From positions 1 through 64,000 of the forward strand of contig CALZJF010000001.1 of the NCBI GenBank assembly GCA_945787885.1: a DNA stretch of 64,000 bases. Direction: 5' to 3'. The notes under the pieces were generated by a model. That model was given only the letters and a program-made list of their open reading frames with translations, was not told the origin of the DNA and ran no database searches. Numbering within the stretch: the stretch's first letter is position 1; the number at the start of each line of letters is the position of its first letter. Shown here one piece after another: positions 4,504 to 57,470 of the stretch. The position numbers and the translations under genes are program-made. This stretch comes from an uncultured Bacteroidales bacterium (lineage in GTDB: Bacteria > Bacteroidota > Bacteroidia > Bacteroidales > Bacteroidaceae).

Positions 4504-4693
4504 GGTAGGTTCTATAAATTAGTTTTCAATGTAAGCCAGTGTTTCTGTTTTACTTGGACGTCTTCACGCCTCTCGCACCGTATCTTTTTGTCTTTCATTC
4601 AGTCACGTAGCCCACTACGCTCCCTCGTGAAAAAACAAAAACCTACGGCACGATAGTCGCAAATACATCGCAAGCTAATTGATAGAACCTACC
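4504..4693 (-). mobile_element. Family A miniature inverted-repeat element, copy 1 (190 bp)
   Basis: The termini GGTAGGTTCTATAAATTAG and TAATTGATAGAACCTACC are inverted repeats. TTCA is duplicated at both flanks (4500-4503 and 4694-4697). No ORF. It fills most of the 330-bp gap between the luxR start and the next gene end. Confidence 0.9.
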
Positions 4694-22761: not shown

Positions 22762-25700
22762 TCACTTCACAAAAATCTTTTTCACAGTTCCGTCAGGCAT
22801 ACGGACAATGTTCACCTTACCCTTGATGACCTTGTCGCTCTGTACACCCGAAGTAGAATAGATGCTCGTGGGCTGTTCGCCGTCGATCTCGATGAGTCCG
22901 ATGCCGACGGTCTGCTGCTCATCGATGGCTGCCTGCAACATTTCGTCGATGGCTACCTTGATGTCAGCCACGCTGAAGACGAAGTCGAAGAGATTGCCAG
23001 AGGTCTTGGCTGCCTCCACGTCTGCCTTCACGGCATCAATCATAGCTTGGATTTCTTCCGCTCTGTCCTTATAGTTGTCGGCTACGTCCGCACATTCGTT
23101 CTCGATGTACTTCACGGTCTCTTCAAGGGCTGCCTGTACCTCGTCCACCTGTGCGGTGTAGTCTGCATAGAGTGCGGTATATTCCTCCTGGGCTGCCTTG
23201 GCCTCAGCCTGAATGGCGGCGAGCTCGGTCTCCATAGCCTGAATGGCTTCCTTGGCGGAGGTGAGGTCGGTGGCGTCAGCACCGGCGGCCTTGCTCTCCT
23301 CAATGAATGCCTGGACTTCGGCAAGGGCGGCCTCTACGGCGGCCATGCGCTCGGCGAAGTTGTCCTTCACGTCGGGACAGTTGTCCAGCGTCTCCTTCGT
23401 GTCAGCGAGGGCGGTGCCGAGCTGTGTCAGTGCCTTGTCGAACTCGGCGTAGGCGAAGTCGTTCTGGGCTGCCTTGGCCTCAGCTTGAATGGCGGCGAGC
23501 TCGGTCTCCATAGCCTGAATGGCTTCCTTGGCGGAGGTGAGGTCGGTGGCGTCAGCACCGGCGGCCTTGCTCTCCTCAATGAATGCCTGGACTTCGGCAA
23601 GGGTGGCCTCCACGTCGGCCATGCGCTTGGCGAAGTTGTCCTTCACGTCGGGACAGTTGTCCAGCGTCTCCTTCGTGTCGGCGAGGGCGGTGGCGAGCTG
23701 TGCCAGTGCCTTGTCAAATTCGGCGTAGGCGAAGTCGCTCTGGGCAGCCTTGGCTTCGGCAAGGATGCTGGCGAGCTCGGCATCCATAGCCTGGAGGGCT
23801 TCCTTGGCAGAGGTGAGGTCAGAAGCATCTGCACCAGCGGCCTTGCTCTCCTCAATGAATGCCTTGACTTCGGCAAGGGCGGTCTCGACGGCGGCCATGC
23901 GCTCGGCGAAGTTGTCCTTCACGTCGGGATAGTTGTTCAGGGCTTCCTTCGTGTCGGCGAGGTCGGTGGCGAGCTGTGCCAGCGCCTTGTCGAACGCGGC
24001 GTAGAGGTAATCGCTCTCAGCAGCCTTGGCATCGGCGAGGATCTGGATGAGTTCGGCATCCATTGCCTGCAGAGCCTCCTTGGCGGAAGTGAGGTCCATG
24101 GCGTTCGTGTCGGCGGCCTTGCTCTCCTCGATGAAGCCCTTCACCTCGGCGAGGGCGGTCTCTACGGCGGCGATGCGCTTGGCGAAGTCGTCCTTCACGT
24201 CGGGATAGTTCTCCAGGGCTGCCTTCGTGTCGGCGAGGTCGGTGGCGAGCTGTGCCAGCGTCTTGTCGAACTCAGCGTAGAGGTAATCGCTCTCAGCAGC
24301 CTTGGCGTCGGCGAGAATCTGGATGAGTTCGGCATCCATTGCCTGCAGAGCCTCCTTGGCGGAGGTGAGGTCCATGGCGTTCGTGCCGGCGGCCTTGCTC
24401 TCCTCGATGAAGCCCTTCACCTCGGCGATGGCGGTCTCTACGGCGGCGATGCGTCCGGCGAAGTTGTCCTTCACGTCGGCATAGCCTTCCAGCGCCTCCT
24501 TCGTATCGGCGAGGTCGGTGGCGAGCTGTGCCAGCTTCTGCTCGTACTCCATATAGAGGTAGGTGCTTTCTGCAGCCTTGGCCTCTGTGAGAGCGAGCGT
24601 CATATTCTGGTCGATGGCTTCGAGGTCTGCCATTCCGAACTTCAGCTCCTGGGCGAGCTTGCCCGCAGCCTTGAAGCTCTTGATGGTATTCTCGAAGTTC
24701 TCGATGTCCTGTCCAGCCTTCTCCATCGTGGCGGCATACTGCTGTGCCACATTGGGGAGGTAGGTTTCGATGTATGCCTTCGTGTCTTCGAAGCTCTGCT
24801 TCAGTTCTGCCAGCTTCGCCTCGTAAGCGGTGTAGATGATGTCGCTTTGGGCAGCCTTGGCATCGGCGAGAATCTGGATGAGTTCGGCATCCATTGCCTG
24901 CAGAGCCTCCTTGGCGGAGGTGAGGTCCATGGCGTTCGTGCCGGCGGCCTTGCTCTCCTCGATGAAGCCCTTCACCTCGGCGATGGCGGTCTCTACGGCG
25001 GCGATGCGTCCGGCGAAGCTGTCCTTCACGTCGGGATAGCTCTCCAGAGCTGCCTTCGTGTCGGCGAGGTCGGTGGCGAGCTGTGCCAGCGTCTTGTCGA
25101 ATTCGGCGTAGAGGTAATCGCTCTGGGCAGCCTTGGCAGCAGCCAGGATTTCGCCGACTTTGTTATCGTAAGCCTGCAGGTCAGGCTCCACTTCGGTGGG
25201 CAACTTGTTTGCGTCCTGTCCCTGACGGATGTTCTGCTCCTCCGTATCAAGTGCTGTCTTCACGGCTTCCAGCTGGGGCACATAGGTTTCAGCCACATCC
25301 TTGTAGTTGTCCGTGATGGTCTGAATAGCATCGTCGCACTCTTTGCGGACGCCATCGATGCCTTTCAGGAAATCCTCGTAGCAACCATCGATGTAAGCCG
25401 AGTTATCGACCTTCACCACCAGTTCCTGTTCGCTAACGATGGATTTGTAATCTCCATCCGTAGCCACGAACTGTCCGAGTTTGATTTCAGAAGTCTTTGT
25501 CAGAGCCTTCTCGTCCATTTCCAGTTCGAGCGCGAAGAGCATGCCGCTGTTGCCCGCCCAATTCTCCGTAGAGAAAGCAAAGAGCTGGAAGTTGCCGGTT
25601 GACGCATCATACGTGAAGCTCGTACCTTCCGGCAAACGCTCGCCGTAGGTGATGGCATAGTCGCCATATTCATTCTTCACCTTGATCTTCACACCCTCAG

Positions 25701-26349
25701 GCAGAGAGAGGTTGCCCTCTATGGCTTTGACAGTAGGGGTATTGTCCAGCGAAAGTTCCAACACATACGGACCACCGTCTTCGGCAACCACCAACTCCGA
25801 GCTGGCCAGGCTGAACTGCACTTTGGCAGGCCCGGCAACGCTCACCTCAAATTGGTCTTGCGTATAAGTTGTTCCGACAGCTGTAGAAAGCTCGATGCCC
25901 GTCACTGAGATATCGCCACCCGCAAAGGTATCGTCTGCCGTCAGCGTCAGGTAGAAGAATTCGGCATCCGCGTTGGCCGTAGTGCGGAAAGGCGTCGGTG
26001 GCATGGAGAAGATGAAGATTCGTGCGGTCTTTTCTCCAAGGGCATTGGTTCCGTAATCGAGATTTTTATTGAATGTATGCTTGCCCGGCACAATGCTTTC
26101 GCTGTTGGCTGTGGCGGCCTCAGCCGTCACGCCTTTCGGGAAAGTGAAATCAGCCTGGAAGCCACAGATATCACCCGTCTGGTTCAGTCTGACAGGCACC
26201 GTAATGGTCTCTCCGGGTTTCAGGGAGAATCCATCCATGCTGATCGTTCCGTCAGCCATTGCCACACTGACACTTCCAGCCATTGCCAGGAAAGCCAGGG
26301 CATAGCGGGCGGGAAGGCGGTAGAATGTGGAGTTATTGTTCTTTTTCAT
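22762..26349 (-). CDS. Large secreted repeat protein: cohesin-like N-terminus, helical repeats, secretion-tail-like C-terminus
   Basis: 1195 aa. Signal peptide about 1-32 (basic, then YALAFLAMAGSVSVAMA). Residues about 33-320 form beta-rich domains resembling cohesin modules (FSLKPGETITVPVRLNQTGD, FQADFTFPKGVT; then YVLELSLDNTPTVKAIEGNL). Residues about 330-1100 are helical repeats of 92 aa: seven copies (DNA about 23178-25110, 276-bp period) with consensus ALAQLATDLADTK, PDVKDNFA, FIEESKAAG and LTSAKEALQAMDAEL, plus diverged flanking copies. The C-terminus (INIVRMPDGTVKKIFVK-like) matches the tail of its 2267-aa neighbour. Predicted to be a surface or secreted adhesin-like filament; the ligand is unknown. 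Its only possible 5' region, between the ATG and the neighbour's terminator, is almost entirely a family A element. Confidence 0.85.
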   Translation of the reverse strand: MKKNNNSTFYRLPARYALAFLAMAGSVSVAMADGTISMDGFSLKPGETITVPVRLNQTGDICGFQADFTFPKGVTAEAATANSESIVPGKHTFNKNLDYGTNALGEKTARIFIFSMPPTPFRTTANADAEFFYLTLTADDTFAGGDISVTGIELSTAVGTTYTQDQFEVSVAGPAKVQFSLASSELVVAEDGGPYVLELSLDNTPTVKAIEGNLSLPEGVKIKVKNEYGDYAITYGERLPEGTSFTYDASTGNFQLFAFSTENWAGNSGMLFALELEMDEKALTKTSEIKLGQFVATDGDYKSIVSEQELVVKVDNSAYIDGCYEDFLKGIDGVRKECDDAIQTITDNYKDVAETYVPQLEAVKTALDTEEQNIRQGQDANKLPTEVEPDLQAYDNKVGEILAAAKAAQSDYLYAEFDKTLAQLATDLADTKAALESYPDVKDSFAGRIAAVETAIAEVKGFIEESKAAGTNAMDLTSAKEALQAMDAELIQILADAKAAQSDIIYTAYEAKLAELKQSFEDTKAYIETYLPNVAQQYAATMEKAGQDIENFENTIKSFKAAGKLAQELKFGMADLEAIDQNMTLALTEAKAAESTYLYMEYEQKLAQLATDLADTKEALEGYADVKDNFAGRIAAVETAIAEVKGFIEESKAAGTNAMDLTSAKEALQAMDAELIQILADAKAAESDYLYAEFDKTLAQLATDLADTKAALENYPDVKDDFAKRIAAVETALAEVKGFIEESKAADTNAMDLTSAKEALQAMDAELIQILADAKAAESDYLYAAFDKALAQLATDLADTKEALNNYPDVKDNFAERMAAVETALAEVKAFIEESKAAGADASDLTSAKEALQAMDAELASILAEAKAAQSDFAYAEFDKALAQLATALADTKETLDNCPDVKDNFAKRMADVEATLAEVQAFIEESKAAGADATDLTSAKEAIQAMETELAAIQAEAKAAQNDFAYAEFDKALTQLGTALADTKETLDNCPDVKDNFAERMAAVEAALAEVQAFIEESKAAGADATDLTSAKEAIQAMETELAAIQAEAKAAQEEYTALYADYTAQVDEVQAALEETVKYIENECADVADNYKDRAEEIQAMIDAVKADVEAAKTSGNLFDFVFSVADIKVAIDEMLQAAIDEQQTVGIGLIEIDGEQPTSIYSTSGVQSDKVIKGKVNIVRMPDGTVKKIFVK
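23178..25110 (-). repeat. Seven in-frame 276-bp coding repeats
   Basis: Period 276 bp (92 codons) within the 1195-aa gene. Blocks around 23240-23330 and 23516-23606 are nearly identical in DNA. Copies 2 (about 24558-24833) and the flanking ones are more diverged. It could expand or contract by homologous recombination. Confidence 0.85.
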
Positions 26350-26372
26350 AATTGTCTTGGGATATTGTTAGA

Positions 26373-26630
26373 GGTAGGTTCTATAAATTAGTTTTCAATG
26401 TTAGGCAGTGTTCCTGTTATACTTGGATGTCTTCACGCCTCTCGCACCGTATCTTTTTGATTTTCATTCAGTCACGTAGCCCGCTACGCTCCCTCATGAA
26501 ACTCAAAAACCTACGGCACGATAGCCGCAAATACATCACATCCGACGACAAACCGAGAGCCATCAAGTTTACTTGTATGGCCGAGGTGCGAAGGAGGACG
26601 ATTTTGTCAAGCTAATTTATAGAACCTACC
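26373..26630 (-). mobile_element. Family A miniature element, copy 3 (258 bp, with extra internal segment)
   Basis: Ends GGTAGGTTCTATAAATTAG / CTAATTTATAGAACCTACC are perfect inverted repeats. About 70 bp of extra sequence (26543-26610) is inserted near the right end. Flanks TAGA/TTGA, imperfect. It lies 23 bp upstream of the 1195-aa gene start and occupies most of the 26350-26698 gap. Confidence 0.88.
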
Positions 26631-26647
26631 TTGAAAAAATCATTTTC

Positions 26648-26688
26648 GAGACGTGGCAATCTGCCTGCGGAAGGCAGAGCCACGTCTC
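26648..26688 (-). terminator. Terminator of the 2267-aa protein gene
   Basis: Stem GAGACGTGGC / GCCACGTCTC with an inner CTGCCT/AGGCAG stem, 10 nt after the stop on the minus strand. Downstream bases are AT-rich (GAAAATGATTTTTTC). Confidence 0.8.
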
Positions 26689-26698
26689 AAAAAGAGTA

Positions 26699-29600
26699 TT
26701 ACTTCACGATAACCTTCTTGGACGAGCCGTCGTTACCGCGGATGATGTTCACACCGCGCTTGAGTCCATCCATGAGGATACCGCCTACGTTGTAGATCTT
26801 CTCCTTCACCTCCTGCGTCATGCTGACGTTGCTCAGACCCGTGGTCTCTCCGGCAGCGATGGCAAGTTCGAAGGCGCGGCCGTAGCTGTTGGCGAAGAGG
26901 ACGTTGGAGAGGACGATACCCTCACCGTTGTAGTTGTGGTCAACGTTCACATCGAGCCAGAGGAGAGCGCCCTTGCCCGTGTTCATGCCGGCACCCTCAG
27001 CGGAAGAGAGGAGGATGCGGTGGCTGCCGTTCTCAAGGTCGTTGCTGAGGAGCGAGAGTGCGCCTGCCATTTCGCCCGTGGTCTCAGCGGCGAGCGTTAC
27101 GCCCTCGGGGAGTGTGATGTCCATCTGGCAGCCGGCATAGGTCTGCTCAGCGTCGAGCAGGATGCCGATGCGCTGATGAACGCCCTCACCCTCGACGATG
27201 ATGGAAAGGGCATCGTCGGTAGTAGCGTGAGGAATGGCCACGCGGACGCGTGCGGGAGCAGGAGCGGCATTTGGATTGAGAATCATCTGAACGAGCTTCA
27301 TGAGGTCAGAGATATCCACACGGTCGTCATTGTTGAGGTCGGCAGCGGCCTTCTGTACTTCCGTTACACCCTCCTCGTGTCCGAGAATGATGTACTGGAG
27401 CATAGCGAAGTCAGAGAGCGAAACGTTACCGTTCTCATCCTGGTCGATGTTGCCCGGTTTGTAGGTATCCTTCTGGATATCAGAGTTGAGCTTTTCAGCC
27501 TCCTTAAGAATATCCTCAAAGATTGCGATGGCTGCAGGAACATCCTTTCCCACGAAAGTCTCATGGTCATGGTATTCACCGACGGTATTGCCTGCTTCAT
27601 CTTTAATTTCCTCACCCGTTATTTTTGTTGTGGTATAATATTTCCCGGAACGAATATAATTAAGGTAAAGATTATAGATGAAGTTATATGCAGCAGAGGC
27701 TTGCTGTATCAATTCGTCACATTTAGCACTGTGAGTTTCTGCATTAAGGATATACTGATTATCATTCAGCAAGTTGGCGATATTTTTGAGAGTCGTTCCG
27801 ACAGTGGTGTACTCTGTGGCATTTGGGTTGTAACGATTCCAAACTTCGTTGTAATAGCTACTACCCTCGAAGTCCGTAATGATGCTCTTGTAATTTCTTA
27901 TATCCTTCAGCTGAGTCGGATTGTCAGGATCTTGGTCTTTCAACGCGCCTTCAGTGGTGGGAACGCTGTTAATATCTGCCTCGTTGGATGGAATAAACCC
28001 ATTATCCCCATTAAACCAATCTTCGTAGCCCCAATCTGACCAGGCGTCTTTAACTTTAAACTGTTGGAAGAGTTCGTTATTCAGCAGGTCTTCGACGTGT
28101 TTCTTGATGCCTTCGAGTTCTTTCGTGAGCCTTTCGCGTGCTGCGACATCGGCATCATGTTTTTTCTTGGCAGTAGTTACCTTGGTCTCCAAGGGTTCGA
28201 GAGTCTCCTTCCTCCAATCGTCGATCTGCGACTTCAGATTGCTTTCTTGAACGATAAGCCATCCATTGGCTTTGAACGTTTCGACACTTTCCTTAAGCTC
28301 AGCAGTCTTGTCAGCTTCAAGAATGATACCAGCCTTCATGAAGTCATAGAGACCTTCGTGGTCAGCAGCCATAACATCGTAGCGCTTCTTGAGACTTTCG
28401 AGGCTTTCCATGAATGCATTATAGACGCCTGTCATTCTGCCAGCAGAAAGAGTATTGCGGGCATCGATGATTTCGTTCTGAATATCAAGCAGCTTGTTGC
28501 AGGTGTGCGTGGAAGTCGCTACGCCTTCTGCATCCCATTCCGTATCGGCCAGCTCCTCATCTGTGAATACCAAGCGAGTCTCGAAGTCAAGAATCTTCGG
28601 CTCGTATTCCTTCTGCAAGGTCTGCTTGGCTTCATCAGTCAGGTTCTCCTCGGTCAGAGCCTGCTGATAGTCGGACTTGAGATAAGCCAATTGAGTTTTG
28701 AGAGTCTCATATTCCTCATTGTTGATAGTTACCTTCAGATTGTCAGCCTCATACTTTGCAGGGGAGAGATATCTGCTATGGAGGTATGCATAGTTCCATT
28801 GCATACAACATATAGAATGAATGTATTCTGCCTCCGACTTTGCTTTATCCAGCTTTTCCTGAGCTTTTGTAACGGCAGAGGCCTTAGCGATGAACTCAGA
28901 AGCGTAATCGCTGTAACTATCGATAATCTTCTGAACAGCCTCTACGGAAGTGTAAGTACTACCTTCAGGAAGCCCTGCACCCGTCATGAACATTTCATAA
29001 TAAACCTTACTCTGTTCAAATTTGGAGACTATATTCTTGAAGTCAGTATAACCACTATCAGACTTGAAGTTGCTAAACTTTTGGGCAACATCCGACATAT
29101 TAACAGCCCCTTCTTCCGTGCTGTCTTCATATTTCGGCGTATAACCTTCTACATAAGATTGCCACTCCTCATAAGCTGCATCGAAGGTCTCCTTATAGGT
29201 CTTTCCATTCTTGTACTCCCGATTTGCATCTTTAGCACACATGGTAAACAGACCTTCTGTTCCAGTCACTTTATTACCATACAATTCTTCGTAGAGCTTG
29301 TCCAATTCTGCTACCCAAGCATCGTACTGGGCTTTGGCAAGTTCATCCAGAGCTGCGGGCAAAGTCTCGGTTTCAAGGGTCTTCAAGTCAGAATCGTACT
29401 TACTCATGTAGTTCAGAGCCAGTTCCTTATCATCCAACCCACGTTTTGCCGATGCCAGTTTGGTATTAACCTCAGAGAAATATGGCTTGAGAAGCTCAGT
29501 TGAAAAATCACCCTTCTCGTCAAAGCATATAGAATATATCTTGCGGTTCTTGCTGTCGTTGGGTATTGCCTGGTTTTCGATAAGCTTGATTTTATCTTCA

Positions 29601-32600
29601 ACGGCTTGGATTCGATTGCTAAGAGTTTCTTTCGCTGAACTATTCAGCTTTTTAACAGCAGAATCATAGGCATCTTTAATAGCTTTGTGGGCTTCATAAA
29701 TCGTACCTGATTCCGACGTGATACCCTCTTCATTGGTTACCTTCTGATAGTACTTATAGGCAGTCTCGAAGTATTTAGCATTCTCGACATCCTCTTTTTC
29801 AAGTTCGGCATTTTCTTTATCTAAAGCCTCTTTTGCATCTGTTGCCTTTTTATACTCTTTCTCCAGAACATTCTTCTGAGTATAGAGTTCTGCCGTCGCA
29901 TTTGCTACAATATCATTCCAGCGATTAGCGTCTCCATCTACATCGAAGAACTTCTTGAGCTTATTGATATAATCTATGCAATCATTCACAGCCGCATTGT
30001 AAGCAGCCGTAATGGTAGCCAATGCTTCACCGTTCGCTATAGCCACGGACGCCAGATAGCCATTGTCCTTATCTATCCAAGCTCCGTAGACTGCATTGAT
30101 GTCAGTGGTTTGGGTGTTATAATCCTTGACATACGTCTGATATTGCGAAGTCTTGGTATCATTGCTGAGTTTACCTTCACCGAAGGCTGTTTCAATAGCC
30201 TTTTTAGCCGTTTGAATAGCAGTATCGATAGCTGCCAATTTCTTCAGGTAAGTCTGCTTATCGTCGGTTTGGTCTTTGGTATCAATCTTGTTGTAAATCT
30301 TGATATAGAGCTCTTCTACCTTCTTACCACGTGCAACGAGGTCAGTATGATTCTTCTCATTGTCAGCGCAGTTGGTCTTGACAGCGTTTACTTTGGCGAC
30401 TATCTCTTTTATGTTGTTCTTTGTGGCAGTCTCCTTGTCCTGAGCAACACCGTTAGTATAATAATTCTCAATGCTTAATACAAGAGCTTCAATCTCCTGC
30501 TTCAAACCATCAAGATGTTTAATGTAATACTGACGTCCTGCGTTGTCAACGAAATTGCTAAGAATATATGTTCTGACAGCTTCGGTGATAGGAGTCGTGC
30601 CATTCGTTGCATCATACAAATCCTTCTTTGCTGCTATCAAATTGTTATAAGCCGATAGGTTCTCCTTAGCATTTGTTGCCTTAGTAAGATAGTCAGAGAT
30701 AGTCTTTGTGATATCATTCAACTGAGAATCGAAGCCCTTTTTGCCATCTGCATCTTTGCAGTCTGCAACGAACGTCTCTGCACTCTTGGAAGCATCCAGG
30801 GCGGTCTTCAAATTCTTAAGAGAAGTTTCAACTTCCGTGTAGTAGCCTTCAAATTCTGCCTTGCGATTGGCATCGCCATATTTCTTTTCATCCTTGATGT
30901 CGGCAGCAGCTGTTACAGCTTTGTCGTAGTTTACGATAAAGTCTTCATAAGCCTTATTGTTTGCCTCAAAGGCATTCTTGACTCCTTCAGCCGCCTTATC
31001 AAGTCCGGCAATGCGCTCGCTGATTTTTGTAAATGCGCTGCGGTCGTTACCCAAAACAATGATATATTCCTGAGCCTCTTGTAAGGTAGGATTTTCAGGA
31101 AGCGCACGAGCAGTGTACGTACCATCCGGGTTTACACCCCAAGACTCCGTCTCGGAGATTACATGCTTAACGTCATAAAATGCCTGACGGATACCGCAGA
31201 AGTTATCTGCTGTGGCATCGCCTGCATCAAGACCCGGACCGAATATATCCACAAGGTGCTTTCCGTAGATATCGACATTCGCTTGAATATTGGGGTTGTA
31301 TTTATTGTATCTATCTCCCAGTTCATTGCGAAGGGCTTTTGCCATAGCTGGCACCTCAACGGCAAGCTTATTGGCAGTGGCAATCGCCGTAGTCAGATCA
31401 TGAGCGTCCTTAGCTGCGTTGTACGTTTCAGCATCAACAGAGAGGATTTCAGGCATATCCTTAGAATCAGGAACCTTCAAGTCCTTCATCGCATTTGCGT
31501 GAGCATAGAGGTCATCTTCTGTATTCAGTGTTCCTACAGCAGTATTCAGGTCTGACTCCAGATTTTCAATCTCCTTCTTAGCCTCCACCAATGCAGCACC
31601 GTAGGTGGTAGTGTTATACGGCACGAGGGAAGTGGTGCTGATAAATTTTGCTACTTTATCATATTCGTCATTCCAGCTGTCAATAACAGCCTTCATGGCC
31701 ACATATTTATCATAGGCAGCCTTAGCCTTAGACTTATACGTGGCGATAGAGCCGGATTCAGTTGCAGTTTCACCTTCACCATCCTTGACATAGACAGCCT
31801 TAATGGCTTTTTCAATTTCAGTATAGTTGTATCCCTCTGCGGTAGGATCGATGGAAATATTATCGAGCTCGCCGAGTTCAGCTTCAATAGCAGCTTCGGC
31901 AAGACCCCAGAAGCTTGCCGCTACGTACTTTCCATCTTCAGTCTTATATTCAGCCACCTCTCCCTTTGCAGCCTTATAGGCGGCATGTGCAGCAGAACGA
32001 AGACCCGTCAGATAAGCCGTACTTGCATCGTTGTCAACAAGAGTCTTTAAGTTGCTGACAGCAGTATGGGCAGCAGATTTCAGTTCATCGTAATTCGTGG
32101 GGAAAGCTCCCAGGGCATCCTTCGTGGCTCCTGCCATAACAGCTTCCAGTGCATTTTTAACAGCCTGAGTTGCATCTTCAGCTGCCTGCGTAGAGATATT
32201 CCACTGGTTTGCCTTAATCTGAGCCTGGCATTCAGCCAAAGTGCTGAAGTCACTCTGAACTTCATTGAAATACCGCTTCATGTCATTTCCATGATCAACA
32301 AAAGCATCCTTTACGCCTTGCATTTCGCTCACAGCCTTTTCGACACCGGTTGTCAAGGCATCTTTATTGTTGGAGAATCCCAATTGGGGGAAACCATCCT
32401 TCAGAGTCACTACGGCAGAATACTCTGCTTGGAGTGCTTTTTTAGCCTTGTCGAGCAGGGTAGCATATTCCTCGCCAGCAATCTGCTGCTCCAATTTTGT
32501 TAAGCAGTTGTCGTATTCCGTCGAAGCTTCGTTGAACTTTGAATTTACAGCATCATAGGAAGAAAAATCCGCACTGAGAGTTGAAATAGTGACGCGATAT

Positions 32601-33502
32601 CCAGATTCTACACCATCTTCAGACTTATAATATATCTTGTCAAGCCATTCTTGCTTGTTCACGGTGATGTTATCCTCCGTATAGGCGAAGCTTTTTTTGA
32701 ACTCTCCAATCTTCTTTTCGAGTTTATCAACCGTGTCCTTGTACTGAGCCTTTACGGCATCAGAAGCTTTTTCTAACTTAGCTTTAAGGCCAGACAGTTC
32801 TTCATCCATACCATCGAAAGCAGTGAGCACGGCGTAACAATCCTCTAAGGTCTGGATATCCTTCTCAATCTTAGATGGGGTCTTGCTATTACCATAGTTG
32901 TAGAGCTGCTGTGCTTTATATGTTTTGTAAACATCGCTCTCAGTGCCATTTGCTAATGTGCCATTCTGCAATACACCGATTATCTTCTCAATAGATTCCG
33001 CCTTTTTTTGGAGAGTCTCTCCCCAAGTACTTGTTACAAAAGCCAAATCGACTTTTACCTTATCAAGCCTTGATGTAAGACTACTATTTGTTGCTGCAAA
33101 ATCAAAAATCAGGCTTACGTTAATGCCACCGACGGTGAAGATGTTGTCGGGGCTTATGCGATCAACCTTCAGCGTGACAGTATTCGTCTCTGCTTCAAGC
33201 GTGAACACATCGCCAGGATTGTAACTTTTACCATCCACCCAGATGGTGAATGTGGCATTGGACGTTTTTTCAGCATCAACCGTAACCGTATAGGTACCCT
33301 TCACCAATGTAATATCCTGTGAGATACCAGCACCAAAACCTACAAGATAGTCTTCAACAGAAGAATCCAACTTCGTATTCTCTGCTGCCGTCCAGTCCTT
33401 GACAGAATTTTTGTCAGCAGGAACAGACCATGTAGCATTGGCAAAACCAGCCATTGGCAGTGCTGCCAAGGCTGTAAGAGAAAGCATAAAATTTTTTCTC
33501 AT
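26699..33502 (-). CDS. Giant secreted coiled-coil protein with dockerin-like and cohesin-like C-terminal modules
   Basis: 2267 aa. Signal peptide MRKNFMLSLTALAALPMAGF + ANA. A beta-rich N-terminal domain (about 25-140: YTVTVDAEKTSNATFTIWVD) precedes about 1850 residues of predicted long helices/coiled coil rich in Lys, Glu, Ala and Asp with irregular repeats. Residues about 2016-2076 contain two EF-hand-like dockerin repeats (DQDENGNVSLSDF and DLNNDDRVDISDLMKLVQ), then a cohesin-like beta domain (about 2088-2215; YAGCQMDITLPEGVTL) and a C-terminal tail IYNVGG...GVNIIRGNDGSSKKVIVK. It is predicted to be an exported, possibly surface-anchored, rod-like protein. The upstream region carries what looks like an invertible promoter, presently pointing away from this gene. 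Base composition is more AT-rich than its neighbours. Confidence 0.85.
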   Translation of the reverse strand: MRKNFMLSLTALAALPMAGFANATWSVPADKNSVKDWTAAENTKLDSSVEDYLVGFGAGISQDITLVKGTYTVTVDAEKTSNATFTIWVDGKSYNPGDVFTLEAETNTVTLKVDRISPDNIFTVGGINVSLIFDFAATNSSLTSRLDKVKVDLAFVTSTWGETLQKKAESIEKIIGVLQNGTLANGTESDVYKTYKAQQLYNYGNSKTPSKIEKDIQTLEDCYAVLTAFDGMDEELSGLKAKLEKASDAVKAQYKDTVDKLEKKIGEFKKSFAYTEDNITVNKQEWLDKIYYKSEDGVESGYRVTISTLSADFSSYDAVNSKFNEASTEYDNCLTKLEQQIAGEEYATLLDKAKKALQAEYSAVVTLKDGFPQLGFSNNKDALTTGVEKAVSEMQGVKDAFVDHGNDMKRYFNEVQSDFSTLAECQAQIKANQWNISTQAAEDATQAVKNALEAVMAGATKDALGAFPTNYDELKSAAHTAVSNLKTLVDNDASTAYLTGLRSAAHAAYKAAKGEVAEYKTEDGKYVAASFWGLAEAAIEAELGELDNISIDPTAEGYNYTEIEKAIKAVYVKDGEGETATESGSIATYKSKAKAAYDKYVAMKAVIDSWNDEYDKVAKFISTTSLVPYNTTTYGAALVEAKKEIENLESDLNTAVGTLNTEDDLYAHANAMKDLKVPDSKDMPEILSVDAETYNAAKDAHDLTTAIATANKLAVEVPAMAKALRNELGDRYNKYNPNIQANVDIYGKHLVDIFGPGLDAGDATADNFCGIRQAFYDVKHVISETESWGVNPDGTYTARALPENPTLQEAQEYIIVLGNDRSAFTKISERIAGLDKAAEGVKNAFEANNKAYEDFIVNYDKAVTAAADIKDEKKYGDANRKAEFEGYYTEVETSLKNLKTALDASKSAETFVADCKDADGKKGFDSQLNDITKTISDYLTKATNAKENLSAYNNLIAAKKDLYDATNGTTPITEAVRTYILSNFVDNAGRQYYIKHLDGLKQEIEALVLSIENYYTNGVAQDKETATKNNIKEIVAKVNAVKTNCADNEKNHTDLVARGKKVEELYIKIYNKIDTKDQTDDKQTYLKKLAAIDTAIQTAKKAIETAFGEGKLSNDTKTSQYQTYVKDYNTQTTDINAVYGAWIDKDNGYLASVAIANGEALATITAAYNAAVNDCIDYINKLKKFFDVDGDANRWNDIVANATAELYTQKNVLEKEYKKATDAKEALDKENAELEKEDVENAKYFETAYKYYQKVTNEEGITSESGTIYEAHKAIKDAYDSAVKKLNSSAKETLSNRIQAVEDKIKLIENQAIPNDSKNRKIYSICFDEKGDFSTELLKPYFSEVNTKLASAKRGLDDKELALNYMSKYDSDLKTLETETLPAALDELAKAQYDAWVAELDKLYEELYGNKVTGTEGLFTMCAKDANREYKNGKTYKETFDAAYEEWQSYVEGYTPKYEDSTEEGAVNMSDVAQKFSNFKSDSGYTDFKNIVSKFEQSKVYYEMFMTGAGLPEGSTYTSVEAVQKIIDSYSDYASEFIAKASAVTKAQEKLDKAKSEAEYIHSICCMQWNYAYLHSRYLSPAKYEADNLKVTINNEEYETLKTQLAYLKSDYQQALTEENLTDEAKQTLQKEYEPKILDFETRLVFTDEELADTEWDAEGVATSTHTCNKLLDIQNEIIDARNTLSAGRMTGVYNAFMESLESLKKRYDVMAADHEGLYDFMKAGIILEADKTAELKESVETFKANGWLIVQESNLKSQIDDWRKETLEPLETKVTTAKKKHDADVAARERLTKELEGIKKHVEDLLNNELFQQFKVKDAWSDWGYEDWFNGDNGFIPSNEADINSVPTTEGALKDQDPDNPTQLKDIRNYKSIITDFEGSSYYNEVWNRYNPNATEYTTVGTTLKNIANLLNDNQYILNAETHSAKCDELIQQASAAYNFIYNLYLNYIRSGKYYTTTKITGEEIKDEAGNTVGEYHDHETFVGKDVPAAIAIFEDILKEAEKLNSDIQKDTYKPGNIDQDENGNVSLSDFAMLQYIILGHEEGVTEVQKAAADLNNDDRVDISDLMKLVQMILNPNAAPAPARVRVAIPHATTDDALSIIVEGEGVHQRIGILLDAEQTYAGCQMDITLPEGVTLAAETTGEMAGALSLLSNDLENGSHRILLSSAEGAGMNTGKGALLWLDVNVDHNYNGEGIVLSNVLFANSYGRAFELAIAAGETTGLSNVSMTQEVKEKIYNVGGILMDGLKRGVNIIRGNDGSSKKVIVK

Positions 33503-33684
33503 AGTCTATAAGAATTATTAAATGTTAATATTGTTATTTCGTTTTTCGTTTTCGGAGCGCACCCCGTACGCTCCACTCATCTAATATATATAATAATACG
33601 TGCAATCACCCCTTTCCCGAGGGCTACGGCCATAGGAAAAGTATGGTTCGGGCTGTACCGCTGAATGGAAAATTATGTCAAAAT

Positions 33685-33969
33685 ATTCCGATTTCTTGGG
33701 AAGAAATCTGAAACATCAATGTACAAAGGGGATTTCTCATCTTTTCGGCGGAAAAATTGCCGCAAATTCCATCCCTTTTCCCCCTCAAATTCTCGCTCCT
33801 CCCATAGTGCAGCATTCTTAAGAATTAGGAAGGCTCTATGGCAAAAAGCCTATAAAACAGCGCAGTATCATGCTTTTTTTAGCAAAAAAGCGGCAAAAAA
33901 TTTGGTGAATGATGATTTTTCCTCTACCTTTGCGGCGAAGTTTCAGATTTCTTCCCAAGAAATCGGAAT
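33685..33969. promoter_or_regulatory. Putative invertible promoter segment (phase-variation switch)
   Basis: Perfect 30-bp inverted repeats at 33685-33714 and 33940-33969 (arm begins ATTCCGATTTCTTGGGAAGA) bracket 225 bp. Inside, next to the right arm, is a full Bacteroidetes promoter: TTTG 33901-33904, 20 nt, TACCTTTG 33925-33932, reading rightward. No equivalent promoter faces left. Inversion would aim it at the 2267-aa gene, with a leader of about 210 nt. This is the classic layout of Bacteroidales invertible promoters. The recombinase is not in the window. Inversion itself is inferred. Confidence 0.7.
33901..33932 (+). promoter_or_regulatory. Consensus promoter inside the inverted-repeat segment
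   Basis: -33 TTTG (33901-33904), spacer 20 nt, -7 TACCTTTG (33925-33932); the start of transcription would fall at the edge of the right repeat arm. Confidence 0.8.
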
Positions 33970-34016
33970 AATTTAACATATATATACGCTTTCGGGATGC
34001 TCTTGCCGCGGAGAAT

Positions 34017-34139
34017 ATGAACTTTGGGATGACACGAAGCAGCAGGGAGAGGAACACAAATGTGTTAAGAAAATTAACACAAAGAAGGGAGAATGGAGTT
34101 AAGAAATCAAAAACCATACGCAAAAACAACAGCACTTGA
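34017..34139 (+). CDS. Possible 40-aa basic peptide downstream of the invertible promoter
   Basis: ATG at 34017, TGA at 34137-34139. The peptide starts MNFGMTRSSRERNTNVLRKL and is rich in Arg, Lys and Asn with no hydrophobic segment. It is the first ORF that the promoter in its present orientation would transcribe. There is no homology I recognise; it may be a chance frame. The rest of 33970-34634 holds a 21-bp inverted repeat and nothing else I can name. Confidence 0.2.
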   Translation: MNFGMTRSSRERNTNVLRKLTQRRENGVKKSKTIRKNNST

Positions 34140-34207
34140 GAGCGCAGCGAATGCTCCGCGATGGCGAAAGCACTGAGCTTCGCGCCCATTCTACAGCACA
34201 AAAACAT

Positions 34208-34267
34208 CAGAACTGACCATTTTCTGCCCCAAAGTGATTACTTGGAGGCAGAAAATGGTCAGTTCTG
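34208..34267. repeat. 21-bp perfect inverted repeat, 18-bp spacer
   Basis: CAGAACTGACCATTTTCTGC+C (34208-34228) and its exact complement (34247-34267). The spacer itself is a partial palindrome (CCAAAGTGATTACTTGG). The GACCATTTT/AAAATGGTC core is shared with the 21-22-bp tandem arrays elsewhere. Confidence 0.8.
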
Positions 34268-34634
34268 TGCAAAAAACGATGTGGAAAATCTGAAAATCGC
34301 CATCGGAAAAAGGGCGGGAATTAGGGAAAACCGGGCGATTTCAGGGCAAAATGTGGGGGAAGACTGGGGAAGAAATGGGAAAATCAGGGCTTCCGGACTC
34401 CTAAACAGGGAAAATCCGATGGCTGCCTGCCCAAATTTCGGGAGGCAGGGCAATGCGAAGGGCTTTCCTCAGAGCGTTAAGAAGTGTTAAGGCTCGCGGG
34501 GCGCAAACGCGCTGCTGCCATCCGCATTTTCCGGGACGGAGGGGGAGGATTTATGGAGGGGCTAATGCCGGGATTTGCTTTTTGAGGATTTTAACAATGT
34601 TGGGGTGTTGGCGTTATTAACGTTATTGACGATT

Positions 34635-34853
34635 TTAACAGCAAGGCGGCGGGGCGGGGAGCAAGGCGCGGCGACCCTGAAAATAATATTTCAGCGTGGA
34701 GAGAAGGAGGCTCTTTCCGAAGCGCCGCGGACGACTGAGGAAATAGATATGCCCCTCGTTGGCGAGCCTATACACCAAGTCCGTCTTATCAACATACACA
34801 TATCCGTCTTGGATGATCCGCTCGAAGTCTTGAATGCCTATGGGATACTTCAT
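34635..34853 (-). pseudogene. N-terminal remnant of an AAA-ATPase-like / PD-(D/E)XK protein
   Basis: Starts MKYPIGIQDFERIIQDGYVY and continues VDKTDLVYRLANEGHIYFLS, RPRRFGKSLLLSTLKYYFQG, the highly conserved N-terminus of the Bacteroidales 'AAA-ATPase-like domain' family (normally about 520 aa, with a C-terminal nuclease-fold domain). The Walker A-like RRFGKS is intact. After residue 60 the sequence changes abruptly to RRALLPAPPPCC and stops. It is therefore a truncated, presumably non-functional copy. Confidence 0.8.
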
Positions 34854-34907
34854 ACGCTAAAGAAGATGATGAAAATGATTGATTTGCGAGCAAATATACG
34901 ACATTTT

Positions 34908-35942
34908 TCAGGAAAGGCGAGCAGGAAAAGTGATTGTTTTTGCCCGCAAGCACTCAGCGACGGCACTTCTGCCAACACCGTTGGGGGCGTTCCGCTTGCC
35001 GAACGGGCGATGCAGCAGAGACCATGCGGGGGAGCGGAGGCGGAAGATGCGGACGCCGATGCTCGTCCTGATGCCTTGCAGATAGACATCCAAGGGACGA
35101 GCGTCTGCCACCACGCACCGCCTGGCAGACGAGGCATGAAGGAGATGCAGCTTGCCATCCTGCCCCCAGAAGGCTATGCCCTGATGGCTATAGTCGAGGC
35201 CGGCCAACGTGGTGACGATGCAGACGATGTCGCCATCGCGGACAGCTCCCAACTGCTCCTTCGACAGTCCGCAATATTCCTGTGGGATATACCGGAACGA
35301 CTGTCCGGCATACTGCGCCTCCAGCGCTGCCATGCGCCGCACATCGTCGGGGCTCTTCAGTCCGGCATACTTGTCGGGATGCGTGCTCATGAAGTGTATG
35401 TCGGTGGTACGGCGTTTCATCCATTTCGCCCCGACCACCACTTCCTCCACATCCCCGCGACGGAGATGATCGTCGATCCAAAACGTCAGGTAGTGGAGGC
35501 GCGAGAGATAGTCCGTGCAACGCCCGTCGCGGTATCGGAGGCTCTCCAACGCCTCGCAAAACAGGGCCCACGCATCGGGCACGGCGGGAGCGAGGGCGGA
35601 CTGCGGGGAAGCCCAGGGCAGGGCGTAGGGCAGCGTCCGCTCCGCGCGCTCCAAACGGGAGCGGGCGATGGAGAGCGCGGAGGCCGTCTCGACGAGGGTG
35701 GCACAGTCCAGCTCGCGAAGATTGACGACGAGATGTTCGGCACCACGCTCCAAGGTGTGAGCCACATAGGGGCGGCCTTCGAGACGGCGGGCAAAATCGA
35801 GGGGCGAACGGAGCGTGCTGTCAGCCAGCCAGGCAGCAACCTCAAGCGAGTCGGCAGCAGCATATTCCACCTTCACCGACGGCTGAGCCAGCACGGCGGA
35901 CACGCAGGCGAGGAGGGAGAGGAAAAAGGCAATGCGGCACAT
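34908..35942 (-). CDS. DUF1460 family secreted protein (amidase-like fold)
   Basis: 344 aa. Signal peptide MCRIAFFLSLLACVSAVLA. DUF1460 motifs include LDFARRLEGRPYVAHTLER, the catalytic-Cys block LRELDCATLVETASAL, the pair DYLSRLHYLTFWIDDHLRRG, IPQEY, VRDGDIVCIVTTLAGLDYSH with the His in YSHQGIAFW, and LLHASSARRCVV. Members have an NlpC/P60-like papain fold and are annotated as N-acetylmuramoyl-L-alanine amidase-like, acting on cell-wall peptides in the periplasm. Residues after about 318 (HRPFGKRNAPNGVGRSAVAE) look less conserved. Single gene between a terminator and the ATPase relic. Confidence 0.85.
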   Translation of the reverse strand: MCRIAFFLSLLACVSAVLAQPSVKVEYAAADSLEVAAWLADSTLRSPLDFARRLEGRPYVAHTLERGAEHLVVNLRELDCATLVETASALSIARSRLERAERTLPYALPWASPQSALAPAVPDAWALFCEALESLRYRDGRCTDYLSRLHYLTFWIDDHLRRGDVEEVVVGAKWMKRRTTDIHFMSTHPDKYAGLKSPDDVRRMAALEAQYAGQSFRYIPQEYCGLSKEQLGAVRDGDIVCIVTTLAGLDYSHQGIAFWGQDGKLHLLHASSARRCVVADARPLDVYLQGIRTSIGVRIFRLRSPAWSLLHRPFGKRNAPNGVGRSAVAECLRAKTITFPARLS

Positions 35943-35956
35943 AGGAAGCAGATGAT

Positions 35957-36013
35957 AAAAAAAACCGACGACCGCGCAGCAACGGGGGAATGATTGCCAC
36001 GCAGGGTCGTCGG
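35957..36013 (-). terminator. Terminator of htpG
   Basis: Minus strand: stem CCGACGACC / GGTCGTCGG with a long loop, ending in eight T (35957-35964), 28 nt after the htpG stop and just before the DUF1460 start. Confidence 0.8.
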
Positions 36014-36041
36014 GAGATGATGATGATTATGCAAGATGCAC

Positions 36042-38144
36042 TTATCCAATCAGCTCTACGCTACGCTTGACGAAAGCATTGAGAGCCTCGCCCTTCAGCA
36101 GGCCATTCTGGAGGAGAGCCAAATCGATGAGCTGGGGGACGATGCGGTTCGTGCGGGCATACTCGCCGAGGATGGCATCGCGCTCGCCCTCCTGCTTCGT
36201 GATTTCCTCGCGCACCTTCTTCAGGTCTTCCTTCTCGGCCTCGCTGAGGTCTTCGGGCTTCACGTCCTTCTGCGCCGTCGTCATGGCATCGCGCTGCGCA
36301 CGGAGATTCTTCAGTTCGCCGTCGATGGGAGCCAGACGCTCATCGAGCTGGGCATGGAGGTCGGCCGTCACGCCCTTCACGAGACGGTGGTCCGTGTTGA
36401 GCACGAGGGTGTAGGAATCGGGCATTTCGCCGTAGAAGCCCATGCCCTGCTGCAACTTCGCCATTTCCTTATAGCGGCGCATATATTCGCTCTGGGTGAC
36501 GACGACGGGGCTGCCCTCCTCGCCCATGGCCGAAGCCTCGACGTGGAAATCCGTCTTATCGACGTGCGGCATGACAGCCTGGAAGATGGCAGAGAGCGAA
36601 TGCTTCGTCTCAGCATCCACCTCATGGCTCTTATCGTCGGACTTCTGTATGAGCTTGTCGATCGTATCGCCATCGACGCGGAGGAACCTGACATTCTTAT
36701 AGGCGCGCTTCTCCTCGCCCTCCTTCGGCTCGCCGTCCGCGCTCCACTTCTGCTCAAGGGTGCTGACGAGGGGCGAATCGAGCTGGCCATCGAGGAGAAG
36801 GACGTTGTAGCCCTTCGCACGCGCAGCCTCAATGTAGCCGTACTGGGCATCGCGGTCGTTGCTGTAGAGGCAAATGAGGTCTCCATGCTTATCCACCTGA
36901 CTGCCCTGCACGGCAGCCTGATACTCCTCGTAGGTGTAGCACTTGCCGTCGATGTCGCGAAGCAGGGCGAAGGCCTTGGCCTTGTCGTAGAAGTCGGGCT
37001 CGCTCAGGATGCCATAGTGGATGAAAAGCTTGAGGTCGTCCCACTTCCGCTCAAAGTTCTCACGGTCTTCGCGGAAGATGGCCTTCAGGCGGTCGGCCAC
37101 CTTCTTCGTGATATACTGCGAAATCTTCTTCACATTGCTGTCGCTCTGGAGATAGGAACGGCTGACGTTGAGGGGAATGTCCGGACTATCGATGACACCG
37201 TGGAGGAGGGTCAGGAAATCGGGGACGATGTTCTCCACGCTGTCCGTGACGAACACCTGATTGCAGAAGAGCTGAATCTTATTGCGGTGAATGTCGATGT
37301 TGCTCTTGATCTTGGGGAAATAGAGCACGCCCGTGAGGTGGAAGGGATAGTCCACATTGAGGTGAATCCAGAAGAGCGGATCATCCTGCATGGGGTAGAG
37401 GTCGCGATAGAAGGCCTCGTAGTCTTCATCCTTCAGGGTAGAGGGCTGCTTCGTCCAGAGCGGGGAGGTCTCGTTGATGATGTTCGGCTCGTCGGTCTCC
37501 TGCTGGCTGCCGTCCTTCCACTCCGTCTTCTTGCCGAAGGCGATGGGAATGGGGAGGAACTTGCAATACTTCTTCAGGAGTTCCTCTACGCGATACTTCT
37601 CCAGAAATTCCTTGCAGTCATCATCGATATGCAGCACGATGTCCGTGCCGCGCCCGGCACGCTCCGTCTCCTCCAAGGTATATTCGGGATTACCGTCGCA
37701 GCTCCACTTCTGCGCGGGGGCATCCTGCCAACTCTTGGTGATGATATCCACGCGCTTGGCCACCATGAAGGCGCTATAGAATCCCAGGCCGAAATGCCCG
37801 ATGATGGTGGCGGCATCGTCCTTGTATTTCTCCAGAAAGTCGGTAGCACCGCTGAAGGCAATCTGATTGATATAGCGTTCGATTTCGTCGGCAGTCATGC
37901 CGATACCGCGGTCGCTGATGGTCAGCGTGCCGGCCTCAGCATCCACCTTGACCTCGATGGTAAGATTCTCCATGTCGCCCACGCTCTCGCCCTTGGCAGC
38001 AAGCGTCTTGAGCTTTTGGGTAGCATCGACAGCGTTGGCGACGATTTCGCGGAGGAAAATCTCGTGGTCGCTATAGAGGAACTTCTTGATGACGGGGAAA
38101 ATGTTCTCGGTGGTAATACCGATGTTGCCTTTCATTTGTGCCAT
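36042..38144 (-). CDS. htpG: Chaperone HtpG (Hsp90)
   Basis: 700 aa. The N-terminal GHKL ATPase domain contains FLREIVANAVDATQKL (E and N of the ATP site), ISDRGIGMTADEI and IGHFGLGFYSAFMVAKRV. The middle domain has RGTDIVLHID and GVLYFPK, and the SRSYLQSD stretch. The C-terminal dimerisation domain is followed by a run of charged residues (EDLSEAEKEDLKKVREEITK). It is a cytosolic ATP-dependent chaperone. Single gene. Only 15 bp upstream of its ATG lies an inverted-repeat element related to family A, so its leader is transposon-derived. Confidence 0.95.
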   Translation of the reverse strand: MAQMKGNIGITTENIFPVIKKFLYSDHEIFLREIVANAVDATQKLKTLAAKGESVGDMENLTIEVKVDAEAGTLTISDRGIGMTADEIERYINQIAFSGATDFLEKYKDDAATIIGHFGLGFYSAFMVAKRVDIITKSWQDAPAQKWSCDGNPEYTLEETERAGRGTDIVLHIDDDCKEFLEKYRVEELLKKYCKFLPIPIAFGKKTEWKDGSQQETDEPNIINETSPLWTKQPSTLKDEDYEAFYRDLYPMQDDPLFWIHLNVDYPFHLTGVLYFPKIKSNIDIHRNKIQLFCNQVFVTDSVENIVPDFLTLLHGVIDSPDIPLNVSRSYLQSDSNVKKISQYITKKVADRLKAIFREDRENFERKWDDLKLFIHYGILSEPDFYDKAKAFALLRDIDGKCYTYEEYQAAVQGSQVDKHGDLICLYSNDRDAQYGYIEAARAKGYNVLLLDGQLDSPLVSTLEQKWSADGEPKEGEEKRAYKNVRFLRVDGDTIDKLIQKSDDKSHEVDAETKHSLSAIFQAVMPHVDKTDFHVEASAMGEEGSPVVVTQSEYMRRYKEMAKLQQGMGFYGEMPDSYTLVLNTDHRLVKGVTADLHAQLDERLAPIDGELKNLRAQRDAMTTAQKDVKPEDLSEAEKEDLKKVREEITKQEGERDAILGEYARTNRIVPQLIDLALLQNGLLKGEALNAFVKRSVELIG

Positions 38145-38159
38145 AATCTACTGATTCAT

Positions 38160-38288
38160 GTGGGGCTCTATTTATTAGTCGGAAAGAGCGGAAGCCATGC
38201 AAGCCGTGCATGGCAGCCTCGAACGACGTAGCCCGGACTGTTTTAATATCGTTGTTTTGATGAAGGTGGTAATAAATAGAACCCACCC
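38160..38288 (-). mobile_element. Diverged miniature inverted-repeat element (family A relative, about 129 bp)
   Basis: Ends GGGGCTCTATTTATTAG / AATAAATAGAACCCACCC are inverted repeats resembling family A ends, and the interior shares ACGTAGCCCG. No clear target duplication. It starts 15 bp upstream of the htpG ATG. Confidence 0.65.
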
Positions 38289-41987: not shown

Positions 41988-42176
41988 GGTAGGTTCTATA
42001 AATTAGCTTGCGATGTATTTGCGACTATCGTGCCGTAGGTTTTTGTTTTTCACGAGGGAGCGTAGCGGGCTACGTGACTGAATGAAAGACAAAAAGATAC
42101 GGTGCGAGAGGCGTGAAGACATCCAAGTAAAATAGAAACACTGCCTTACATTGAACACTAATTTATAGAACCTACC
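41988..42176 (+). mobile_element. Family A miniature element, copy 4 (189 bp)
   Basis: Perfect terminal repeats and 4-bp duplication TTAT (41984-41987 and 42177-42180). The right duplicate overlaps the dxr start codon (TTATG), so the element is fused to the dxr coding start. It is inverted relative to copy 5. Confidence 0.93.
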
Positions 42177-47177: not shown

Positions 47178-47278
47178 GCAGACGCGGAGATTACGGGGCA
47201 AAAGCCTCGGCTTGCCCCACCCGCCCAAGCTACGACCTGCGGAAAATCTCCAGCACCTACTTATATAAGGTTGGTTCT

Positions 47279-47457
47279 ATAAATTAGTTTTCAATGTAAG
47301 GCAGTGTTTCTGTTTTACTTGGATGTCTTCACGCCTCTCGCACCGTACCTTTTTGTCTTTCACTCAGTCACGTAACCCGCTACGCTCCCTCGTGAAAAAC
47401 AAAAACCTACGGCACGATAGTCGCAAATACATCGCAAGCTAATTTATAGAACCTACC
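47279..47457 (-). mobile_element. Family A miniature element, copy 5 (179 bp)
   Basis: Ends GGTTGGTTCTATAAATTAG and CTAATTTATAGAACCTACC; target duplication ATAA at 47275-47278 and 47458-47461. It is the only copy beside a start codon with its other end facing the gene: 20 bp upstream of the TonB-receptor-like gene. Confidence 0.9.
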
Positions 47458-57088: not shown

Positions 57089-57470
57089 GTAGGTAATAAA
57101 AATTATTTTACGATAGATATAGTAGGCGACTATTATGGATTGTATGTTAGAACCCTCTCTTTGGCGCATCTTTTAGCCTTGAAAAACGTCACATAGCACG
57201 CGCTATGCTCCTTTTTTTCAAGACTAAAACCTGCATCCAAATAGAATTCTAACATAAAAGGTAGGTTCTATAAATTAGTTTTCAATGTAAGGCAGTGTTT
57301 CTGTTTTACTTGGATGTCTTCACGCCTCTCGCACCGTATCTTTTTGTCTTTCATTCAGTCACGTAGCCCGCTACGCTCCCTCGTGAAAAACAAAAACCTA
57401 CGGCACGATAGTCGCAAATACATCGCAAGCTAATTGATAGAACCTACCAAAAATCATTTTCATTACCTAC
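57089..57470 (-). mobile_element. Family B element, copy 3, interrupted by a family A element
   Basis: Outer ends GTAGGTAATAAAAATTATTT and AATCATTTTCATTACCTAC flank a body matching 17461-17628. At 57260-57448 it is split by family A copy 7. TAA is found on both outer flanks (57086-57088, 57471-57473). It fills the first part of the 57087-58077 gap. Confidence 0.88.
57260..57448 (-). mobile_element. Family A miniature element, copy 7 (189 bp), nested in family B
   Basis: Complete element with AAAA duplicated on both sides (57256-57259 and 57449-57452), inserted into the right part of family B copy 3. This gives the order of insertion. Confidence 0.92.

Follow-up and report, generated by a model that had tools for sequence, protein, structure and literature searches.

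The question raised by this locus is whether the short intergenic segment that lies between inverted repeats, upstream of the gene for a 2267-aa secreted protein, is an invertible promoter (inverton) for that gene, and which recombinase might turn it. The segment was analyzed within the whole stretch of 64,000 nucleotides (the window), within its own genome (2.70 Mb in 96 contigs, 91% complete, and the one genome of the species), and against genomes of the same genus. Our answer is that the 287 bp at 33684–33970 very probably function as an invertible promoter for the 2267-aa gene and stand in the OFF orientation in the assembly; we assign a probability of about 85% to this reading. From the sequence, we infer the inversion at 33684–33970, its ON/OFF effect, and the identity of the recombinase. 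The features needed for the argument are the following.

22762..26349, minus strand: gene for a 1195-aa protein with an N-terminal cohesin (Pfam) and coiled-coil-like repeats; next gene, same strand as the giant gene
26373..26630, no strand: copy of a MITE-like element between the two genes, which bears on their co-transcription
26699..33502, minus strand: open reading frame of the 2267-aa secreted protein, with a Pfam dockerin at residues 2020–2075 and a tail ending in ..GVNIIRGNDGSSKKVIVK; putative target of the switch
33684..33714, plus strand: left arm, with the core palindrome GATTTCTT-GGG-AAGAAATC at 33690–33708 (repeat search and own-genome pattern search)
33715..33939, no strand: segment inside the arms, 225 bp, putatively invertible
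33901..33932, plus strand: Bacteroidales-type promoter TTTG-N20-TACCTTTG, exact consensus; rightward at present, which is OFF for the giant gene
33940..33970, minus strand: right arm, with the core palindrome at 33946–33964 and the centre CCC (repeat search and own-genome pattern search)
34908..35942, minus strand: AmiA-like amidase gene (Pfam), reading towards the segment

Arms, promoter, and neighboring genes

The two arms are perfect inverted repeats of 31 nt, in keeping with the inverted repeats of approximately 10–40 nt that surround the short segment of an inverton. The initial annotation had described perfect repeats of 30 bp around 225 bp; the perfection and the enclosed length stand, and the measured arm length is 31 nt. 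With the flanks included, the arms are 93% identical over 44 nt. The pair is the longest in the window at spacings of 60–700 nt, where the runners-up reach 20 nt. In dinucleotide shuffles of the 64-kb window searched at the same spacings, the longest perfect arm was 14 nt, and arms of at least 15 nt were found in 0 of 40 shuffles. Each arm is nearly palindromic about its GGG or CCC centre, as had been claimed from the letters alone.

No match to 33400–34200 was found in plasmid records, no exact match to a 23-nt stretch of the arm in viral contigs, and no full-length homologue of the intergenic DNA in 60 other genomes; a short AT-rich match to the intergenic region was found in G053. Rfam at gathering scores returned two tRNAs and nothing else. 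An RNA switch in the leader of the would-be ON transcript was considered and no case could be made for it (folding z of −1.6; an arm hairpin does form). To the right of the segment, at 34208–34267, is a separate 28-nt inverted repeat, CAGAACTGACCATTTTCTGCCCCAAAGT, with a 4-nt loop and 93% complementarity; the word AAAATGGTCA from this repeat is found again beside the fimbrial locus described below.

Between the −7 box of the promoter at 33901–33932 and the right arm are 7 nt, and the promoter matches exactly the consensus, TTTG and TANNTTTG, that is looked for on one strand inside an inverton. The window holds nine exact consensus sites (spacers of 19–21 nt), compared with 0–1 per shuffle in 10 shuffles. 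This promoter faces right, away from the giant gene on the opposite strand, and no leftward promoter-like site with up to one mismatch was found in the segment. The first reading of a single full consensus promoter adjoining the right arm, directed away from the gene and with no comparable leftward counterpart, is borne out by these results. One poor leftward site, TTTG-N21-TAAGAATG at 33845–33813, carries both of its two mismatches in the −7 box and was not accepted as a promoter. Leftward promoter-like sites with up to two mismatches are absent from the 181-bp gap between the segment and the gene. When the segment was flipped in silico, the distance between the end of the −7 box and the ATG at 33502 became 220 nt; placement upstream of the gene had been predicted correctly, at a distance of about 210 nt.

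On the right of the segment, the amidase gene and an Hsp90 gene (36042–38144) both read leftward, and the rightward open reading frames at 33665–33976, 34161–34490, 34575–35993, and 36036–38231 gave no Pfam matches. The promoter therefore has no recognisable gene to serve in its present orientation.

The gene that it would serve after a flip is intact over its 2267 codons, and its product, as judged by eye, begins with a signal-like sequence and is helical over long stretches. An inverton is expected to drive a surface-associated gene in one of its orientations, and this arrangement is found here for the 2267-aa protein, which is presumably located at the surface. The C-terminal tail resembles those of other secreted proteins in the genus and may be read as a candidate type IX secretion signal; the region past the dockerin may be read as a cohesin-like candidate. 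The initial annotation had placed both a dockerin and a cohesin in the giant protein. Pfam confirms the dockerin, and its cohesin match sits in the next gene, 22762–26349, whose product contains several long similar coiled-coil-like repeats. The N-terminal piece of this protein scores 27.5 bits when searched alone (cut-off 24.1), and the whole protein scores 22.1 bits, under the cut-off. It is possible that the cohesin protein and the adjoining dockerin protein form a matched pair. Since no promoter-like site with up to one mismatch was found at 26300–26760, between the two genes, they are possibly co-transcribed.

The MITE-like elements, of which 12 were listed, are mostly 189 bp in length with the terminal inverted repeats GGTAGGTTCTATAAATTAG; a longer form is 258 bp and a shorter form about 100 bp. 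Copies occur in the window at 4504–4693, 26373–26630, 41988–42176, 47269–47457, and 57260–57448, and on many other contigs, several of which begin within about 100 nt of an element. In the 2.70-Mb genome the arm of the element was found 171 times forward and 180 times in reverse at up to one mismatch (control, 0).

Near-full-length homologues of the giant gene were found in G076 and G034, with 28–29% identity over the larger aligned parts. In the 700 bp upstream of these homologues, an inverted pair with arms of at least 13 nt is absent, and on this evidence the switch looks like a feature of the lineage studied. A promoter homologous to that of the window (79% over 55 nt) is found in G007 (contig C41; L006 1501–1580) before a different secreted-looking gene, and the likeness takes in CGGCAAA upstream and CGGC downstream; on reading the sequence, inverted repeats did not stand out around it.

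A second pair of arms and the tyrosine recombinases of the genome

With up to one mismatch, the arm core GATTTCTTNNNAAGAAATC occurs at exactly four places in the own genome. Two of these are the window arms, and the other two form a pair on contig C6. Both pairs are inverted, with spacings of 256 bp (window) and 263 bp (C6), and a reversed-pattern control gave 0. Relaxing the search to an 18-mer with three mismatches added one further place, with two forward matches in the control. The C6 pair (segment C6:44313–44594) lies to the left of a fimbrial operon that consists of genes for DUF3575/OmpA, DUF5119, a protein with no family, and Mfa_like_1. The arms of the fimbrial pair are alike over only about 19–22 nt and have begun to diverge, with a core mismatch in one arm. 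The segment between them contains the promoter TTTG-N20-TTCCTTTG, with one mismatch, near the left arm and facing away from the operon, so that the assembled orientation is OFF for the window and C6 pairs alike. The alignment of the two promoters extends past their boxes, and the alignment score of the segments (15.5) is below that of the highest shuffle (17) and is not significant alone. Beyond the C6 pair lies TTTG-N20-TACCTTGG, a fixed promoter-like sequence one mismatch away from the consensus; the fimbrial operon thus need not be strictly off, and it may be only partly off in the assembly. The presence of the same arm core at the fimbrial operon suggests that one recombinase probably acts on both pairs.

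Mpi, a master invertase of Bacteroides fragilis, is a serine recombinase, and unlike an Mpi-type regulon, the own genome (91% complete) gave no match to Resolvase (PF00239). It gave five Phage_integrase matches. Two of these, the XerC/XerD-like recombinases of C85 and C6:72394, were set aside as housekeeping enzymes by their neighbors, which we take to be hpf and aroQ from their translations. The remaining three are related tyrosine recombinases of about 402 aa (C19, C6:212–1423, and C70), two of them sharing 33 and 36% identity with the remaining one. All three contain the Phage_int_SAM_5 (PF13102) and Phage_integrase (PF00589) domains that are characteristic of Tsr-type enzymes. In answer to the suggested search for a serine or tyrosine invertase with further targets sharing the arm, a second pair of arms and three tyrosine recombinases were found, a serine enzyme was not, and no recombinase was found beside the window pair or the fimbrial pair in a Pfam search of selected neighbors and the own-genome search.

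Two of the three recombinases have invertons of their own with the same arm plan (CATCTCTTGGCAAGAGATG before the UpxY-family gene at C19; CTCTACATAAGAG). The order at C19 is recombinase, inverton with 22-nt arms CTTCATCTCTTGGCAAGAGATG, UpxY-family gene (99.8 bits against a curated cut-off of 100), and Epimerase_2 gene. At C6:212–1423, the contig starts with the arm CTCTACATAAGAGAGGGATG, and the partner arm is at 176–195. Contig ends thus coincide with arms of this site family at the first base of C6 (L029 1–195) and at the end of C77 (L142 3361–3475), where a similar site starts 114 nt before the contig stops, next to what appears to be the 3′ end of a recombinase gene like that of C19. Such breaks could reflect the presence of both orientations in the sampled population.

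Of the three enzymes, C70 alone has no detected adjoining inverton, and no inverted repeat was found beside it. Its closest relative in the genus is in G025 (51% identical), and both genes are flanked by Pro_isomerase and seryl-tRNA synthetase genes. A tree of 44 recombinases, in which the bootstrap is not fully converged, places these two in one group at 100/99. The window and fimbrial arms have in common the half-site TTTCTT and the centre GGG. For C19 and the two recombinases nearest to it in the tree (L128 and L129), the half-site is TCTCTT and the centre GGC or GGT. By elimination, which is a weak basis, the stand-alone 401-aa enzyme of C70 is our first choice and best guess as the recombinase for the window arms.

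We envisage that a tyrosine recombinase encoded elsewhere in the genome would bind the palindromic arms through the half-site GATTTCTT, that the asymmetric GGG/CCC centre would set the direction, and that the joining of both arms would invert the segment. As assembled, the promoter would fire rightward, where there is no recognised gene (OFF). In the flipped orientation, transcription would start just ahead of the left arm, approximately 210–220 nt upstream of the 2267-aa gene, and would turn on the secreted dockerin protein and possibly also the cohesin protein downstream. The same enzyme, with C70 as the best guess, would probably switch the giant-protein and fimbrial loci. We put forward more tentatively, at a little under even odds, a scheme in which the chromosomally fixed C70 enzyme would set the fimbrial operon and the giant dockerin/cohesin scaffold stochastically via their shared arm, as an adhesion switch independent of the capsule switch, for which a separate recombinase and arm sequence exist.

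Related sites in other genomes and alternative readings

The arm core was matched in 5 of 58 same-genus genomes besides the own one, and an inverted pair at up to one mismatch was found in no genome of the 58 other than the own one. Four of the five have one site each, for which an inverted partner at up to two mismatches was absent within 700 bp, and were rejected as further switches. In the fifth, G016, the match belongs to a series of similar palindromes close to an integrase-like open reading frame. At this place (contig C3; L033 1420–1680), at least six near-palindromes, TTTCTTCGGAAGAAA and variants of it, were counted by eye in the approximately 260 bp downstream of the reading frame. 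Sites of the form TTTCTTNNNAAGAAA lie close together in none of 27 other genomes, and such pairs occur only in the own genome (28 searched). Counts of the simpler site YTCTTNNNAAGAR are at chance (13 against 15 in the control for the own genome; 8 against 8 for G025), and three pairs in the own genome are the only YTCTTNNNAAGAR sites to stand out in these two genomes. In G025, the stretches around the eight sites lack an inverted repeat of at least 12 nt that takes in the site. C70 relatives and arm sites were not found to co-occur, with pairs in none of G025 and 26 further genomes, a result that weighs neither for nor against C70.

The arm plan itself, a palindromic YTCTTNNNAAGAR around a 3-nt asymmetric centre, is found beside related tyrosine recombinases in the own genome and in relatives. 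Of 20 same-genus recombinase loci, which are the better matches of a longer list, nine have a palindromic inverted pair of the YTCTT-NNN-AAGAR type near the recombinase (L114, L115, L118, L120, L122, L125, L128, L129, and L132, with L120 off by one base, CTCTTTGCGAGAG); such arms are absent from the other 11, several of which are near a contig end. Among loci from named records, 5 of 21 have such a pair by eye (L075, L079, L082, L084, and L089), some with an altered base or centre. Among the matches listed, the −7 box of a promoter is at most 14 nt from the arm ahead of it in 8 of 16 invertons at up to one mismatch and in 11 of 16 at up to two. A promoter so placed is absent, among the matches listed, from the remaining five (L114, L118, L120, L122, and L132, the list being complete for L132).

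A further comparison between genomes concerns the C19 segment, which aligns with its homologue in a sister species (G079) only when inverted (52.5 vs 10.5; highest of 100 shuffles, 18). With the G069 segment it aligns only as it stands, in the same orientation (50.0 vs 10.5 inverted; highest of 100 shuffles, 15). The inverted alignment with G079 indicates that a site of the same family as the window arms has flipped. A possible link to fimbriae also recurs: in G066, a recombinase of the same family is followed by an inverton with the arms TCTCTTTGGAAGAGAAAT, a DUF3575 gene, and a DUF6562 gene, and TTAC-N20-TACCTTTG (two mismatches) faces the DUF3575 gene. The encoded protein is 24% identical to that of the own genome (E = 8.8e-18), and by its DUF3575 gene the G066 locus would be a fimbrial operon. 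Palindromic arms with at least six paired bases were found at 2 of 30 DUF3575-type loci, the own one and that of G066.

Could the arms instead be a pair of operators, at which a dimeric transcription factor loops or represses a fixed promoter with no inversion? Each core is palindromic alone (GATTTCTT-NNN-AAGAAATC), and such a pair flanks a promoter at two loci. However, the window arms are identical outside the palindrome as well, the sequences on its inner and outer sides matching in inverted register across 31 nt, and both pairs have their asymmetric centres in inverted orientation. A fixed layout leaves unexplained why the promoters face away from the giant gene and from the fimbrial operon. 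Recombinase genes also have like arms at their side, and the orientation of one such segment is opposite to that of its homologue in another species; we consider the operator arrangement to be very improbable. The locus might also be a former inverton that is now locked, the recombinase having been lost or become inactive on these arms, with the gene off or read from an unseen promoter. The lack of a recombinase adjoining the pair, the divergence of the fimbrial arms, and the OFF orientation of both pairs are all in accord with this idea, but the 31-nt arms of the window show no difference, the giant reading frame is intact, and the genome encodes three recombinases of a suitable family, which makes a locked switch unlikely in our judgment.

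An invertible promoter, the reading that we prefer, draws support from the long and specific arms, the single promoter adjoining one of them, the second pair at the fimbrial operon (fimbriae being a usual target of invertons), the recombinases with like arms, and the inverted homologue of the C19 segment. Within this reading, the capsule-locus enzyme of C19, instead of C70, might act in trans on the window arms. The C19 arm CATCTCTTGGCAAGAGATG matches the window core at 14 of 19 bases, counted by eye, with GG of the centre included, and PMC4747536 provides a precedent for an invertase that sits beside a polysaccharide locus and acts in trans. Against C19 are the half-site difference described above (TCTCTT vs TTTCTT) and the weak argument from elimination that favors C70. 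We regard action by C19 as a real possibility, although we would bet against it.

Comparison with known invertible promoters

PMC4747536 describes BF2766/Tsr19 of B. fragilis, a single tyrosine recombinase that inverts a local polysaccharide promoter (IVp-I) and a distant one (IVp-II), the latter serving a cluster with a lipoprotein gene; the −7 consensus is TAnnTTTG. The present system resembles that of Tsr19 in having promoters between inverted repeats at local and distant loci, the likeness being one of layout, with arm sequences aside. It differs in its putative targets, a giant dockerin protein and fimbriae, and in that no recombinase adjoins either pair. Mpi is described as inverting 13 regions, many of them distant (PMC4747536).

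For the invertible promoters of Bacteroidales that are associated with UpxY, PMC8748976 gives the consensus −33 TTTG and −7 TANNTTTGY. The C19 locus agrees with these systems in its order of recombinase, inverton, and UpxY and in its promoter consensus (PMC8748976). The window pair, in contrast, is far from any recombinase found and outside a polysaccharide locus. The survey of the hCom2 gut community reports short inverted repeats, a Bacteroidota promoter motif, and tyrosine invertases tied to groups of arms; the short inverted repeats and the promoter motif of the window are like those of its inverton groups (PMC11892184).

In the PMC open library, no paper was found that joins invertible promoters or invertons to dockerin, cohesin, or type IX secretion, and nothing found there contradicts the novelty initially suggested for the control of a dockerin/cohesin protein. 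If the segment flips, the species could vary a very large surface scaffold, together with pili, from cell to cell, and phase variation would reach beyond capsules, fimbriae, and outer-membrane systems to cohesin–dockerin assembly at the surface. The arm plan, a half-site with a 3-nt asymmetric centre, suggests a way to pair orphan invertons with recombinases in one genome. The mechanism is already known from the systems cited above; what is new here is a dockerin-bearing putative target and a probable recombination site that it has in common with fimbriae.
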